Shown here in pieces: positions 15,234 through 21,479 of a stretch of DNA of 50,738 nucleotides; position 1 is the stretch's first letter, and every line of letters begins with the position of its first letter. The notes under the pieces were generated by a model, which was given only the letters and a program-made list of their open reading frames with translations, had not been told where the DNA came from and ran no database searches. The DNA comes from Gammaproteobacteria bacterium (GTDB lineage Bacteria; Pseudomonadota; Gammaproteobacteria; SZUA-152). Position numbers and translations under genes: made by a program. The stretch covers positions 1-50,738 of the forward strand of contig JAKIUN010000022.1 of assembly GCA_021647505.1 (NCBI GenBank), in the 5' to 3' direction.

Positions 15234-15426
15234 AGGTTTGTTGTTGCCTGTTTGTTGGATGCGTCCCGATTATCCGGCGAACGTTAGCATGTCGGTGCGG
15301 GTGGGCCAACTCAGGTGCCTGTTTCCAAGACTCAGATGGTAGGATCTACACACAGAGAATGCCTATTTGGTATTCACATAACCTATTGATTATTAAGAAA
15401 ACATTGTATTGCCATAGCGCGTCCGA

Positions 15427-15453
15427 TTATGTAACATACGCGATGTTACATAA
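15427..15453. promoter_or_regulatory. Operator-like perfect palindrome
   Basis: TTATGTAACAT and its exact complement ATGTTACATAA (11-bp arms) are separated by ACGCG. The site lies 32 bases before the small ribbon-helix-helix-like gene at 15485 and between divergent nadK and the island. Its symmetry suits a dimeric repressor. Self-regulation by the neighbouring small protein is the simplest inference. Confidence 0.6.
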
Positions 15454-15484
15454 CATGCAGGCTGTTGCGAGGTTAAAGAATATA

Positions 15485-15679
15485 ATGGCAAAAGGCACCA
15501 GTGGGCGAATCGTCGTCGAGATTGATCCCGGATTAAAGCAAGAGCTGTATGATGCCCTTGGGGACGAGGGGATGAATTTGAAGCAATGGTTTCTCGAAAA
15601 TGTTGGGCGATTTCTTGAAGGGCGCGGCCATCCCACGCTGCCTCTGTTTTCACCGCAGGAACTGGGTGAAAGGAAATAA
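15485..15679 (+). CDS. Small ribbon-helix-helix-like protein
   Basis: 64 residues from the ATG at 15485, with GAGG about 11 bases upstream. The sequence GRIVVEIDPGLKQELYDAL, then GMNLKQWFLENVG, has the strand-helix-helix rhythm of MetJ/Arc or CopG-type DNA-binding proteins. A short tail PTLPLFSPQELG follows. An upstream ATG at 15446 would place the start inside the palindrome, so 15485 is preferred. It is first in the accessory island and is a candidate regulator that binds the adjacent palindrome. The fold assignment is by pattern only. Confidence 0.6.
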   Translation: MAKGTSGRIVVEIDPGLKQELYDALGDEGMNLKQWFLENVGRFLEGRGHPTLPLFSPQELGERK

Positions 15680-15726
15680 TGATGTTATTTAATTCCACTA
15701 AGGTGGCTTTTGCTCCACGTTAAGGA

Positions 15727-16305
15727 ATGAGCTACTACGACAACAATGCCGTAGCCTTTATTGAATCGACCCGCTTGGTTGATATGCGACCACTCTACCA
15801 ACGATTTTTGCCGTTGTTACCTGGGCAAGCTCACATTCTGGATGCTGGCTGTGGTTCTGGACGAGATGCAAAACAGTTTATCGAACAGGGCTATAAAGTC
15901 ACCGCCTTCGATGCCTCCACCGAGATCGCCGCCCTTGCAGAAAAAGAGCTTGGGCAGCCTGTCTCCGTACAGCGCCTGCAAGAAATTCAATATCAAAACC
16001 AGTTTGACGGTATTTGGGCCTGTGCTTCCTTGCTACACGTTCCAGCCAAAGAGTTACCCTATGTTTTCCACCGACTGGCACGTGCACTGAAGCCCAATGG
16101 CGTGATCTATTGTTCATTCAAATATGGTCAGGGTGAATATGAAAAACAGAGTCGAAGATTTACGGATATGGATAAGGTTGGGTTGCGGGTGTTGGTGGGT
16201 GAGATCGAGGGGCTGGCAATAACAGAGCTGTGGGTCACAGTTGATCGAAGGCCTGGGCGAGAGCGGGAGCAGTGGTTGAATGGGATTTTGGTTGGTGGGG
16301 AATAA
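15727..16305 (+). CDS. Class I SAM-dependent methyltransferase
   Basis: A 192-residue Rossmann methyltransferase. Motif I is ILDAGCGSGRDAKQF (residues 37-51), with VTAFDAST as the acidic post-I region. DGIWACASLLHVP is motif IV, and LKPNGVIYCSFKYG a later strand. There is no DNA-methylase (D/N/S)PP(Y/F) motif, so the substrate is not obviously an adenine or cytosine in DNA. The ribosome site AAGG is unusually close to the ATG, which may mean weak translation. It is second in the island, 47 bases after the small regulator-like gene. Confidence 0.8.
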   Translation: MSYYDNNAVAFIESTRLVDMRPLYQRFLPLLPGQAHILDAGCGSGRDAKQFIEQGYKVTAFDASTEIAALAEKELGQPVSVQRLQEIQYQNQFDGIWACASLLHVPAKELPYVFHRLARALKPNGVIYCSFKYGQGEYEKQSRRFTDMDKVGLRVLVGEIEGLAITELWVTVDRRPGREREQWLNGILVGGE

Positions 16306-16437
16306 GTAAAAGTGGTTTTTTCGTTATGGTAAGTGATAGGCTGCTACCGATCCAAAATTGACATTGTTGCAAGATAGGGGGCACATCATACTAGGCTATG
16401 ACAAGGTTCAATATAAGATATTTTCAAGAGAACACAA

Positions 16438-17223
16438 ATGGCTAAAACACAAATTGAATGGACAGATGCTACATGGAATCCAGTTGCAGGGTGCTCTTTA
16501 GTAAGTGCTGGATGTAAGTATTGTTACGCGATGCAAATGGCTCGGCGACTTGAGGCGATGGGGGTAGACAAGTACAAAGGGCTTGCTAGGAAAAGTGGCA
16601 ATAATGTTACATGGAGTGGGGTTGTTAGAGAAGATCAAGAATCCTTATTGATTCCCTATAAGTGGAAAAAATCGCGTAAAATATTTGTCAACTCCATGAG
16701 CGATTTATTTCATGATGAAGTAAGTGATGACTTTATACTTTTAGTGTGGAAAGTTATGTATGCAACACCACAGCATAATTACCAAATACTAACAAAACGT
16801 CCAGAGCGGATGCGCCAAATTATATCAGACAAGATTAAAACTGTACTACCAAATGTATGGTTAGGGACAAGCATCGAAAACTCTGAGGTAATTGATCGAA
16901 TAAATTTCCTACGCAGGACTCCCGCCGCAGTGCGATTTATCTCGTTTGAACCACTTATTGACTCTGTTGGCTCAGTCAATTTAAGAGATATTCACTGGGC
17001 TATTGTGGGTGGTGAGAGTGGTAGCAAGGCCAGGCCTATCAAAGAAGCGTGGATTGATGAGATTTATGAACAATGTGGCATTTATGATACGGCTTTTTTC
17101 TTTAAGCAATGGGGAGCTTGGGGTAAAGACAACCAAAGACGTTCTAAAAAGGCTAATGGCCGTGAATATAGGGGCAGGACATGGGATGAAATGCCATCCG
17201 CTACAGGCAATATGGCGATATAG
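16438..17223 (+). CDS. Three-Cys-motif protein, DUF5131 / phage Gp37-Gp68 family
   Basis: 261 residues. The opening IEWTDATWNPVAGCSLVSAG is followed by CKYCY, which places Cys19, Cys26 and Cys29 in a C-x6-C-x2-C arrangement. The family is known for this radical-SAM-like cysteine motif. Further family features are FVNSMSDLFHDEV, LTKRPERM, WLGTSIEN and VGGESGSKARP. The enzymatic reaction of the family is not established to my knowledge. The gene is strikingly AT-rich compared with nadK or the flagellar genes. It precedes tcmP by 12 bases, the typical partner arrangement. Confidence 0.88.
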   Translation: MAKTQIEWTDATWNPVAGCSLVSAGCKYCYAMQMARRLEAMGVDKYKGLARKSGNNVTWSGVVREDQESLLIPYKWKKSRKIFVNSMSDLFHDEVSDDFILLVWKVMYATPQHNYQILTKRPERMRQIISDKIKTVLPNVWLGTSIENSEVIDRINFLRRTPAAVRFISFEPLIDSVGSVNLRDIHWAIVGGESGSKARPIKEAWIDEIYEQCGIYDTAFFFKQWGAWGKDNQRRSKKANGREYRGRTWDEMPSATGNMAI

Positions 17224-17235
17224 CAGGGTAGTTAA

Positions 17236-18495
17236 ATGACAAGGAAAAGTTATGATTGGGATGGTGGTGCTAAGCTTGAAGAGCATACAAAGAAAAAACA
17301 TTTCATACTTAGGGAATATTTTAGAGAGTATTTGATTACTCGATGTCAATTGCCTCAGCAGGAAAAGTTCAGGCTTGCTATTGTTGATGGATTTACGGGT
17401 GCGGGCTTATATAAATGCGGAAGTTTTGGTTCGCCTATGATATTTGTTAATGTACTTACCAAAACTGCAAATGAGATTAATTTGCATCGATTAAGTCAAG
17501 GTATGCGCCTTATAATAATCGAGTGCTTACTAATTTTTAACGATCAAGATAAATTTGTTATTGATCAGCTGCGTGAAAATATTGCTCCCCTTTTTGTTAC
17601 CACAAAAGACGACAACGAAAATATCTACATAGAAACTGAATTCTTGAATAATTCATTTGAAGTAATATACCCACAAATAAAGCAAAGACTTCTTTCTGCA
17701 AAGTACCACAATGTACTTTTTAACTTGGATCAATGTGGTTACTCGCATGTTCCTTCAAATATTATTAGAGATATTGTTAATTCATGGCGTTCTGCAGAAG
17801 TATTGTTAACATTTATGATTAGTAGTTTGCTAGCTTATCTATCCCCTCAAAAAGAAGTATCAGGTGTTCCTTTAGAGGCAGTCGTTAAGGGCAAAATTGA
17901 TAGCCTACTTAAGAATGGTGGTGAGCTTCTTGGTAAAGCTCAATGGCTGGGTGAAGCCGAGAAGATTGTTTATTCTCACTACAAGAGTTGCGCTACCTAT
18001 GTAAGCCCTTTTTCAATCAACAATCCAAAAGGATGGCGCTATTGGCTGATGCACTTTGCAAGCTCGTATCGAGCCAGACAAGTTTATAACAACATACTTC
18101 ATCAGGATGGGGAATCACAAGCCCATTTTGGGCGATCCGGTTTGCATATGTTGTCATATAATTCTCAAAATGAGGGGCAGCTATATCTGTTCAACAATAG
18201 TTCAAGGCAGTCTGCTAAGGAAGCACTGTATAATGATATACCAAGGTTTGTTGCTGAGTCTGGTGATACGCTTGCTATGCAGGATTTTTATGCGGCAGCT
18301 TACAGCGAGACACCTGCGCACAGCGACGATATTCATGAAATGATTATTGAGAACCCAGATATGGAAGTCATTACGGAATCTGGAGGCAAGCGAAGGCAGC
18401 CCAATACGGTAAAAGCGGGGGACACATTAAAACTAAAGAGCCAGAAAAGTATGTTTTTCATGTTTTCTGGTACATCAAATGGAAAACAACCTTAA
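17236..18495 (+). CDS. tcmP: Three-Cys-motif partner protein TcmP
   Basis: 419 residues. The N-terminus YDWDGGAKLEEHTKKKHFI, then LREYFREYL, IVDGFTGAGLYKCGSFGSP (a methyltransferase-like glycine-rich loop), and later NLDQCGYSHV are the hallmarks of the TcmP family, named for its regular pairing with three-Cys DUF5131 proteins. It is AT-rich like its partner. The fold looks related to Rossmann methyltransferases, but the reaction is unknown. The C-terminal 40 residues are basic. Confidence 0.88.
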   Translation: MTRKSYDWDGGAKLEEHTKKKHFILREYFREYLITRCQLPQQEKFRLAIVDGFTGAGLYKCGSFGSPMIFVNVLTKTANEINLHRLSQGMRLIIIECLLIFNDQDKFVIDQLRENIAPLFVTTKDDNENIYIETEFLNNSFEVIYPQIKQRLLSAKYHNVLFNLDQCGYSHVPSNIIRDIVNSWRSAEVLLTFMISSLLAYLSPQKEVSGVPLEAVVKGKIDSLLKNGGELLGKAQWLGEAEKIVYSHYKSCATYVSPFSINNPKGWRYWLMHFASSYRARQVYNNILHQDGESQAHFGRSGLHMLSYNSQNEGQLYLFNNSSRQSAKEALYNDIPRFVAESGDTLAMQDFYAAAYSETPAHSDDIHEMIIENPDMEVITESGGKRRQPNTVKAGDTLKLKSQKSMFFMFSGTSNGKQP

Positions 18496-18611
18496 TTTCA
18501 ATGTTTTCTAATGGCACAAAGCACCTCCTTTCTGACTAATCCGCTATTAATTTTCGTAGGCTGATTTCATCCCCTCAACGAGGCACAAGATAAACAGTTT
18601 TCCCCATACTC

Positions 18612-21479
18612 ATGAAATCACCAACCACTGAAACAACTCAATCTCTCATCACCGGCGGAAAATCAGATCCCTTCCTCCCTCAATTACTCGATGCCATCAA
18701 CCAGGCTACGGAGATCGATATCACCGTAGCCTTTATTCGCCAGAGTGGCCTGGATTTGATCTTTGATGCATTGAGAGATGCAATGAATCGCCGTGCGGTG
18801 ATTCGGGTATTGACCTCTGATTATCTGGATGTGACCGAGCCGCAGGCGTTGCGGCGATTGATGTTGTTGGCGGAGCGTGGGGCGGATGTTCGGCTGTTTT
18901 CTACGGCTGGCGATCCCAGTTTTCATATCAAGTCCTATATCTTTCTGCGTCGTGATGGTGAAGCCATTTCAGAGGGCTGTGCCTTTGTTGGTTCCAGCAA
19001 TATCTCTAACATGGCGTTGACTCGTGGCCTGGAGTGGAATCTGCGAGTAGATTATCCGGCGGAATCAGAAAAATTTATTGAGATCCTCGGTAAATTTGCA
19101 ACGCTGTTTTCTGATTCGCGGGTGTTTCCACTCTCTCATGCATGGATCGATGACTACACGGTGCGACGCAAGGTATCGTTGCGGGTGGTCAACGGTGAGT
19201 CGGAAGAGGAATGCCTACCTGCCATCCCTACCGAGATTCAGGCCGAGGCGTTGGCCGCATTGCAGGCCTCCCGGACTGCGGGTTATCGGCGTGGGTTGGT
19301 GGTGCTGGCCACTGGCCTGGGTAAAACTTGGCTGGCGGCCTTTGATGTACAGCAGGTCATGGCCAAGCAGGTGTTGTTTGTCGCCCACCGGGAAGAGATT
19401 CTGATGCAGGCGGAGGAGACCTTTGTCCGTATTCAGCCCGAGGCGAGTATTGGTTACTACACCGGCAAGGCGAAGGAGGGTGAGGCTGATTTTGTTTTTG
19501 CTTCGATCCAGACTCTGGGGCGGGCGGAGCACTTGCAACGGTTTTCACCGGACTGTTTTGATTACATCGTGGTAGATGAATTCCATCATGCAGACTCCAA
19601 TACCTATCGCCGTTTGATCAATTATTTTCAGCCACGCTTTATGCTCGGACTGACGGCAACACCAGAACGCACCGATCAGGCGAATATCCTCTCTCTCTGT
19701 GACGACAATCTGGTATACGAGAGGAATTTTATCGAGGGCATCAATGCGGGTCTGTTGTGCCCGTTTTACTATCATGGCATCCATGACCGGGCGGTCGACT
19801 ATACTGAAATCCCCTGGCGCAACGGGCATTTTGATCCTGGTGACCTGAGTAACAAACTGGCTACCCGTGCCCGTGCCAAGCATGCGCTTTCGGTGTGGCA
19901 GAAGCTGCACCAGAGTCGCACCCTGGCGTTCTGTGTCTCTCGTTCTCACGCAGAGTTTATGGCGGACTATTTCTTCCGAGCGGGTATTCGTGCGGCGGCG
20001 GTACATGCCGAGTCGGAGCTGCCGCGTAATGTGGCATTGAAACAGCTGGAAGCGGGTACGCTAGAAGTAATTTTTTCGGTCGATCTGTTCAATGAGGGTG
20101 TCGATCTTCCCGCTATTGATACGGTGATGATGCTTAGACCGACAGAGTCAAAGATTCTGTTTCTGCAACAGTTGGGGCGTGGACTGAGGCTGCATCGCGG
20201 CAAAGACTATGTGCAGGTGCTGGATTTCATCGGTAATCACAAGGCGTTTCTGAATAAGCCAGAATCATTGTTTGGGGTGCGATCTTTACATGAATTTATT
20301 CAGCGACAACAGGGCGATGATTTTCCGCTGCCTAAGGGCTGTTATGCCAACTACGACCTGGGCGTCATCGATTTTCTGCAACAGGTCATCAAGAGCTTGC
20401 CCAAGGGGATAGTTGATACCTACGAACTACTGAAGTCGACGGATCAACGACGGCCGAGTGCGGTTGAAATGTATCGTGCCGGGGTGGATTTCAAACAGAT
20501 CAGAGGAAGGTTCGGCACTTGGTTTGATCTGGTTGCCGAGCGTGGGGGGCTGGATGAGGCGCAGCAGGTGGTACTGCAGCGGCATCGGCCCTACTTCCGT
20601 GAGATAGAGACGGCACCTATGACCAAGTCGTACAAGATGGTGCTGCTGGAGGCGTTGCTGGAACTCGATGGTTTTATTCATCCACAGACCACCTATGATC
20701 TGGCGATTCGCTCCGGTGAAATTCTGTTGCGTCGCCCGCCACTGATGGTGAAGGATCTACCCGAACGTTTTCAAAGACTGGCCGATATCCTCGTCACCCA
20801 ACCTGGTCAATGGCTCACCTACTGGAACGCCAATCCGGTTAATGCTTTCATTGGCGGCAATAGAAAACAGGGTGAAATATTCTTTGAGCTGGAAGACAAC
20901 CACCTGAAGCCTAATTTTGAATTGACCATCAAAGATCGTGATGTATTTCGTAACATGTTGCAGGAACTGGTGGACTACAAGCTGGCCATGTATATGGATA
21001 GGGAGCTGAGGGGTGTGACAGCCAATGTGGGGGCCAGCTCGGACTGGGACACGGTTCCATTCTTTCCCAATCTAAAAATTGCTTGCGGTTATTTCAAGAA
21101 TGCAGACGGCGAAAATGAGACTATGGTGAAAATACCTCCTCAGTATCGTGCCGATCCTTTGCGCCATTTCATTGCACGTGCCTCAGGAAATTCCATGAAT
21201 GGTGGCAAACAGCCAATCTGTGATGGCGATTATCTATTACTGGAACTGGTCAATGCTGACCGCGCCGGTTCGATCAGCAACCAGATCATGGCCGTGGAGC
21301 GGCAGGATGCGAGTGGCGATGACCAATATGTCCTGAGGGTAGTGAAAAAACGGGGTGGTGGTGACTATTATCTGCAAGCGAACAATCCCGACTATGCCGA
21401 TTTCGATGCTACTGAGGGAATGCGCACCTTTGCACGTTTGCGCAAGACAGTCGCTTCCGAGGACGTGATCGAGGCGTGA
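18612..21479 (+). CDS. PLD nuclease - SF2 helicase with C-terminal S24/LexA-like domain
   Basis: 955 residues. An N-terminal phospholipase-D-like nuclease domain has HIK at 105-107 and GSSN at 127-130. The SF2 helicase follows, with Walker A ATGLGKT (233-239), DEFH box (322-325), TATPER (348-353) and QQLGRGLRLH (519-528, motif VI). A linker region resembling DUF3427 comes next. The last 104 residues look like an S24 peptidase fold: SGNSMNGG with Ser861 and VVKKR with Lys912-913 as a possible Ser/Lys dyad. The G+C content is closer to the genome average than that of the tcm genes. It lies 116 bases after tcmP without a clear ribosome site, so it could have its own promoter. Confidence 0.85.
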   Translation: MKSPTTETTQSLITGGKSDPFLPQLLDAINQATEIDITVAFIRQSGLDLIFDALRDAMNRRAVIRVLTSDYLDVTEPQALRRLMLLAERGADVRLFSTAGDPSFHIKSYIFLRRDGEAISEGCAFVGSSNISNMALTRGLEWNLRVDYPAESEKFIEILGKFATLFSDSRVFPLSHAWIDDYTVRRKVSLRVVNGESEEECLPAIPTEIQAEALAALQASRTAGYRRGLVVLATGLGKTWLAAFDVQQVMAKQVLFVAHREEILMQAEETFVRIQPEASIGYYTGKAKEGEADFVFASIQTLGRAEHLQRFSPDCFDYIVVDEFHHADSNTYRRLINYFQPRFMLGLTATPERTDQANILSLCDDNLVYERNFIEGINAGLLCPFYYHGIHDRAVDYTEIPWRNGHFDPGDLSNKLATRARAKHALSVWQKLHQSRTLAFCVSRSHAEFMADYFFRAGIRAAAVHAESELPRNVALKQLEAGTLEVIFSVDLFNEGVDLPAIDTVMMLRPTESKILFLQQLGRGLRLHRGKDYVQVLDFIGNHKAFLNKPESLFGVRSLHEFIQRQQGDDFPLPKGCYANYDLGVIDFLQQVIKSLPKGIVDTYELLKSTDQRRPSAVEMYRAGVDFKQIRGRFGTWFDLVAERGGLDEAQQVVLQRHRPYFREIETAPMTKSYKMVLLEALLELDGFIHPQTTYDLAIRSGEILLRRPPLMVKDLPERFQRLADILVTQPGQWLTYWNANPVNAFIGGNRKQGEIFFELEDNHLKPNFELTIKDRDVFRNMLQELVDYKLAMYMDRELRGVTANVGASSDWDTVPFFPNLKIACGYFKNADGENETMVKIPPQYRADPLRHFIARASGNSMNGGKQPICDGDYLLLELVNADRAGSISNQIMAVERQDASGDDQYVLRVVKKRGGGDYYLQANNPDYADFDATEGMRTFARLRKTVASEDVIEA

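Follow-up and report, generated by a model that had tools for sequence, protein, structure and literature searches.

The question raised by this locus is whether five genes that look like a single operon form a single system. In the 50,738-nucleotide stretch of DNA analysed here (contig JAKIUN010000022.1, positions 1 to 50,738 of the forward strand, assembly GCA_021647505.1, from a gammaproteobacterium of the SZUA-152 lineage; hereafter the window), five plus-strand open reading frames (ORFs) are flanked by two minus-strand genes, nadK (15233-14349) and a PilZ-like flagellar gene (22269-21535). An earlier reading made by a model from the letters and ORFs alone (the sequence-only reading) had placed all five genes on one strand, which is how they lie, up to position 21479, and had proposed that they make up one anti-phage system. 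We combined an ORF table for the window, which comes from a 3.7-Mb assembly, with scans of the window proteins against domain libraries (Pfam, NCBIfam, PADLOC, and PHROGs) and with censuses of related loci. We consider it likely that the island was put together from three unrelated parts, namely a core of a methyltransferase and a nuclease-helicase that is probably a defence enzyme, a cassette of DUF5131 and TcmP (the tcm pair), and a leftover small gene. The features concerned are as follows.

15428-15452, no strand: palindrome TATGTAACATACGCGATGTTACATA, 25 bp, a perfect 10-bp inverted repeat with a 5-bp spacer
15488-15679, plus strand: small gene, 63 amino acids, putative ribbon-helix-helix (RHH)-like leader or regulator
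15727-16305, plus strand: methyltransferase, 192 amino acids, class I S-adenosylmethionine (SAM) methyltransferase (Methyltransf_25), partner of the PLD-helicase
16306-18540 (approximate extent), no strand: AT-rich inserted segment between the methyltransferase and helicase genes, with a drop in GC content; the gap is 2.3 kb here versus 144 bp in the same-genus genome G004
16438-17223, plus strand: DUF5131, 261 amino acids, phage Gp37/Gp68 family, with three cysteines (C19-x6-C26-x2-C29), radical-SAM-like
17236-18495, plus strand: TcmP, 419 amino acids, RlmJ-like methyltransferase fold with a C-terminal winged helix
18612-21479, plus strand: PLD-helicase-S24, 955 amino acids, a phospholipase D (PLD) nuclease, superfamily 2 (SF2) ATPase, helical coupler, and UmuD-like S24 domain

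Which of these genes travel together was addressed in both directions. In particular, species genomes were scanned with an alignment of the PLD-helicase, the best 80 relatives (nearly all of about full length, including the S24 domain) were taken, and their neighbours were sought with tblastn within 8 kb on each side. In 78 of the 80 loci a homologue of the methyltransferase lay immediately upstream of the PLD-helicase. In 60 loci the two matches occupy one open frame, separated by no more than about a dozen residues, in 18 they are adjacent separate genes, and two loci have no adjacent methyltransferase. (Three of the fused copies are interrupted by a stop further along the frame. Fusion is also seen in a truncated copy on a Polaromonas plasmid, and in a transposon-interrupted copy in Aeromonas the two genes overlap by 4 bp. 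A close relative of the helicase in the endosymbiont of Lamellibrachia barhami has no detectable methyltransferase.) TcmP, DUF5131, and the small gene, in contrast, were found at 0 of these 80 loci. Conversely, among 20 TcmP loci taken from other genomes in the class, DUF5131 adjoined TcmP in 19, and neither the methyltransferase nor the PLD-helicase-S24 protein was found near TcmP at any of the 20. In viral contigs DUF5131 was present at 19 of 20 TcmP loci, whereas TcmP was present at only 1 of 80 DUF5131 loci, indicating that TcmP accompanies DUF5131 and that the reverse does not hold.

A genome of the same genus (G004) carries nadK, then the methyltransferase gene, and then a helicase gene whose product is 93% identical to that of the window, with 144 bp between the latter two and no tcm pair. 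This arrangement is a natural form of the locus without the insertion. Moreover, base composition changes within the island. The GC content (with that of third codon positions in parentheses) is 51.6% (51.6%) for the small gene, 49.9% (50.3%) for the methyltransferase gene, 41.6% (36.3%) for DUF5131, 38.3% (33.1%) for TcmP, and 51.8% (57.0%) for the helicase gene; in the flanks it is 59.7% for nadK, 62.6% for recN, and 51.7% for the PilZ-like gene. The greater AT-richness that had been ascribed to the tcm genes is thus real (38-42% GC versus 50-52% in the small gene, methyltransferase gene, and helicase gene). No terminal repeats beyond chance-like pairs of 12-16 bp bound the tcm insertion, the edges of which are not sharply defined. 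We read the tcm pair as an independent mobile cassette that came to lie between the core's two genes.

The idea of one five-gene anti-phage system, with a nuclease-helicase effector, two methyltransferases, a radical-SAM-like protein, and a repressor, is in keeping with the shared strand, with the short gaps, and with the listing of the tcm proteins by PADLOC as defence candidates. However, the lack of co-occurrence in both directions (0/80 and 0/20), the same-genus locus without the tcm pair, and the break in GC content all argue against it. As a general system it is already refuted, and we give it almost no chance of being correct. The sequence-only reading had itself suspected a composite of two acquisitions, as the AT-rich tcm pair does indicate. 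What survives of its five-gene grouping is the methyltransferase together with PLD-helicase-S24, adjacent in 78 and fused in 60 of the 80 loci, a pair that it had not singled out. The locus illustrates how close gene order on one strand can mislead, in that two independent cassettes come to resemble one operon.

We then asked what the core might do. The domains named from the letters alone were borne out for the helicase protein, in which PLDc_2 (39.9 bits), ResIII, Helicase_C, and Peptidase_S24 (PF00717, 37.8 bits) all scored above the Pfam cut-offs, as they were for DUF5131 and TcmP (scores below). The protein matches the PADLOC model mREase_IV (1.9e-101), and its best match in the PDB is SauUSI (7clg), both by sequence (1.1e-92) and by fold (7.4e-43; AlphaFold2 model with a predicted local distance difference test score, pLDDT, of 81.5); 7clg is the top Foldseek hit of the model, across 970 columns. 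(The VIA-align list for the same model consists of SF2 helicases in rows that cover residues 201-585, and is uninformative for the S24 and PLD domains.) At least 97% of 81 sequences keep the PLD residues H105 and K107 (HxK), the Walker A motif, and DEFHH. The window protein and SauUSI share a PLD nuclease with HxK, an SF2 ATPase, and a helical coupler in the same order; unlike SauUSI, the window protein possesses an S24 domain but no C-terminal DUF3427/SRA recognition domain, and most of its relatives carry S24, DUF3427, and a fused methyltransferase. DUF3427 is present in 56 of the 60 fused relatives and in 6 of the 20 others, and the fullest architecture (locus L048) comprises methyltransferase, PLD, ResIII and Helicase_C, S24, and DUF3427. 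The core of the window is a two-gene version of what is usually a single polypeptide, running from methyltransferase through PLD, SF2 ATPase, coupler, and UmuD-like S24 to, in most relatives, DUF3427. SauUSI cuts modified DNA and not unmodified DNA (PMC7913695); the SauUSI-type class is defined by cleavage of DNA carrying 5-methylcytosine or 5-hydroxymethylcytosine. The core most likely serves to restrict invading DNA as SauUSI does: its ATPase would engage or move on DNA and a PLD dimer would cut it.

The S24 domain sets this protein apart from SauUSI. A824-C825-G826 and S861-M862, which correspond to the cleavage dipeptide and the nucleophile of UmuD/LexA-type domains, are invariant in 81 sequences; the differences from UmuD and LexA are an invariant Arg in place of the general-base Lys and the fusion of the domain to a nuclease-helicase. 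To see how the domain relates to the methyltransferase we used two less biased samples, of 398 genomes of the phylum and 369 of the class, setting aside the window's own genome and one case at a contig edge. The S24 domain and METHYLTRANSFERASE go together across the sampled homologues. In particular, the methyltransferase lies upstream in 7 of 8 evaluable S24-bearing homologues and in none of about 26 homologues that lack S24 (one weak methyltransferase match among these lies downstream), an association of about 1e-6 by a simple hypergeometric calculation, which is a rough guide only as the sequences are related. The S24 domain most likely acts with the methyltransferase as a control module on the SauUSI-like nuclease, and such a module would either keep the nuclease off self DNA or activate it in response to a signal of damage or infection. 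More tentatively, we raise the possibility that the core represents an undescribed class of SauUSI-like restriction enzyme, with a built-in UmuD-type S24 domain and a fused non-DNA methyltransferase, that senses damage or infection in a LexA-like way instead of, or besides, reading modification. Should the S24 domain act as a switch, it would tie SOS-type signalling to restriction.

The methyltransferase itself has conserved residues at D39, G41-G43, G45-D47, D62, W97, A100-H104, W183, and N185. Motif IV of DNA methyltransferases, (D/N/S)PP(Y/F), is not present in it; the corresponding stretch reads W97ACASLLH104 and is mostly conserved in 79 sequences. The protein resembles small-molecule and protein methyltransferases. 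(On a Pseudoalteromonas plasmid, at L028 5986-7673, a gene for a member of this small methyltransferase family overlaps one for an HNH endonuclease, which means that the family has at least two unrelated nucleases as partners.)

The surroundings of the core bear out the impression, already formed from the letters, that these genes look like defence genes. ORFs flanking the 80 helicase loci match 91 PADLOC models at 1e-15, among them HNH, SoFic, HamA, AbiEii, LmuB, components of Druantia and SspB, and Type II methyltransferases, versus 5 models (including MotB-like ones listed as ZorB) in a control drawn from nadK loci and the remainder of the window. The distribution of the core is patchy. A nearly full-length match to the helicase at 49% identity or more occurs in 5 of the 398 genomes of the phylum, the window's genome included. 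Within the genus the core is intact in G004, represented in G001 by a methyltransferase gene at a contig end, decayed in G002, and absent beside nadK in G005 and G006. In viral contigs we found only one partial match to PLD-helicase-S24 above 50% identity, without an adjacent methyltransferase, and so saw no sign that the protein belongs to a phage gene family.

Three other accounts of the core were weighed against this background. The S24 domain could be an active self-protease, such that contact with RecA on single-stranded DNA leads to a cut at Cys825-Gly826 by which the nuclease is released or destroyed. The domain aligns directly with a UmuD, the motifs that flank Ala-Cys-Gly and Ser861-Met are invariant in the 81 sequences along with these residues themselves, and residues 826-832, just after the dipeptide, have a pLDDT below 50 in the AlphaFold2 model, all of which would suit such a mechanism. 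It is set against Arg909, which replaces the catalytic Lys of UmuD and LexA in 81 of 81 sequences, and we regard self-proteolysis as rather doubtful; the invariant Arg provides a sharp test case for whether self-cleavage is retained in such domains. Somewhat less probable still, and in our view unlikely, is that the core is a restriction-modification enzyme in which the fused methyltransferase puts a mark on host DNA and the PLD-SF2 part cuts DNA that lacks it, on the pattern of the single-chain enzymes LlaGI and LlaBIII (Type ISP). In the fused relatives a methyltransferase and an ATP-dependent nuclease do share one chain, LlaBIII is among the structural matches, and the neighbourhood is one of defence genes. 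The core differs from these enzymes, however, in its nuclease, in its domain order, and in a methyltransferase that lacks motif IV and is akin to enzymes acting on small molecules and proteins; moreover, its closest nuclease, SauUSI, targets modified rather than unmodified DNA (PMC7913695). Least probable of the three is a DNA-repair helicase-nuclease with no part in defence. RadD and XPB come next in structural similarity, and the S24 fold is typical of SOS proteins, but the patchy distribution, the defence-gene neighbours, and a nuclease closest to that of SauUSI make a repair role quite improbable.

Several observations weigh against our preferred account of the core as a SauUSI-like restriction enzyme governed by its S24 domain and methyltransferase. 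The methyltransferase family is also found without this nuclease, for instance beside an HNH nuclease, which argues that its role is not specific to the PLD-helicase. DUF3427, the recognition domain of SauUSI, was not found in the window protein or its closest relatives (by Pfam and by the DUF3427 census), and this makes the target less clear. Because Arg909 stands, in all 81 sequences, at the position of the catalytic Lys of the aligned UmuD, self-cleavage of the S24 domain may not occur. Finally, the control for the PADLOC comparison was smaller than the set of flanks (85 versus 125 ORFs) and lies near housekeeping loci.

Searches of the literature, with subscription journals largely outside their reach, turned up no description of a methyltransferase-PLD-SF2-S24 protein, although one may have been published elsewhere under another name. 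Papers on DUF3427, in the passages that deal with it, do not mention a fusion to S24 or to a methyltransferase; no paper on DUF5131 was found, and TcmP received only incidental mentions. (PD-lambda-5 was considered as the identity of the methyltransferase-helicase and rejected, by description only, as the text has a compacted prophage restriction-modification and abortive-infection system labelled methyltransferase and mentions no PLD or S24 domain; PMC9519451.) PADLOC, in the 2023 version used here, files these proteins as plain Type IV enzymes (mREase_IV), even though in most of them a methyltransferase is fused on and a UmuD-like S24 domain is present, two features that almost always go together.

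As for the tcm pair, DUF5131 matches PF07505 (4e-100, 334.8 bits, against a gathering cut-off of 28.9) and, more weakly, TIGR04471, the radical SAM mobile pair A family (75.3 bits, 4.8e-21); the latter score falls below the equivalog cut-off of 355 and marks DUF5131 as a relative, not a member. TcmP matches TIGR04474 (184.9 bits, 2.7e-54, against a curated cut-off of 53 bits), and it matches GMT-wHTH at 1.5e-5, just below the cut-off. The best fold for the AlphaFold2 model of TcmP (pLDDT 80.7) is RlmJ, the 23S rRNA A2030 N6-methyltransferase, with Z 16.0 and a root-mean-square deviation of 2.9 over 212 aligned residues, and the next unrelated row has Z 12.7. The pair probably consists of a radical-SAM-like enzyme and an RlmJ-like nucleic-acid methyltransferase. 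(In TcmP the likely counterpart of the DPP(Y/F) site reads LDQ(C/Y)G.) Both proteins match the DUF5131-TcmP pair already known to PADLOC as phage defence candidates (PDC-M30 and PDC-M41, here as PDC-M41B and PDC-M30B) and to TIGR04474, and they are adjacent and in the usual order; the window copy differs in sitting between two genes of another system, and is otherwise ordinary. On plasmids, neighbours of tcm pairs include CBASS, AbiE, a DUF1837-DEAD pair with a second TcmP, a dGTPase with a caspase-like gene, a pil cluster, and Tn3.

One such plasmid locus offers a comparison with a helicase neighbour. On pSymA of Sinorhizobium meliloti (L381, 6147-11808) the tcm pair adjoins a short second TcmP gene and a large SF2 gene, which is probably hna. 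SMa2243 (a TcmP) and hna appear in the same table of co-regulated genes in a 2025 paper, and hna alone restored full phage resistance (PMC12445080), evidence that in S. meliloti the neighbouring helicase can do without the tcm genes. Hna resembles the window protein in being an SF2 helicase-nuclease with TcmP-type genes adjoining, but a comparison of the window's helicase with the S. meliloti tcm locus, in which the presumed hna lies, gave no match.

The palindrome ahead of the small gene is present where it had been reported. It is the only match to TATGTAA-N0-12-TTACATA in the assembly, and shuffles of the window gave none. A promoter-like site (15409-15437) has a -10-like hexamer that shares bases with the left arm of the palindrome; note that such promoter matches are no commoner than in shuffles. 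A related palindrome is retained in G004, and palindromes also occur upstream of some plasmid homologues of the small gene. The palindrome is likely to be an operator, at which the small protein might act as a repressor. Searches of Pfam, NCBIfam, PADLOC, and PHROGs gave no significant match to the small gene, and its tentative assignment to the RHH family is drawn from a strand-helix-helix pattern and the adjacent palindrome. (An in-frame start is also present at 15359, yet homologues start at 15488.) An N-6 DNA methylase gene begins within two of the plasmid homologues (L363 and L364), with an overlap of 11 bp, and just downstream of a third (L366); the hosts of homologues that overlap or directly precede such methylases are Escherichia coli, Acinetobacter, and Sphingobium. 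No N-6 methylase gene follows the small gene at the window locus, where the small gene thus looks like an orphan leader, probably from an N6-DNA-methylase system. Together with the palindrome it would be the leftover autoregulated leader of that different system. (In the interval between nadK and the methyltransferase gene of G004, at L379, the leader of the small gene and its first six codons run into a 47-codon frame that looks by eye like the beginning of DUF4007 (a BREX/Ssp-type protein), as though a different defence gene had once been exchanged into this position and had since disappeared. The spot before the methyltransferase gene thus appears to have exchanged fragments of defence genes.)

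The flanks of the island had been described as two conserved blocks. Both nadK and the flagellar neighbours are present, but the junction between them is not conserved within the genus, since at the nadK loci of G005 (L370) and G006 (L369) it is grpE-dnaK-dnaJ that adjoins nadK. The nadK-flagellar junction of the window probably reflects a rearrangement within this genus.

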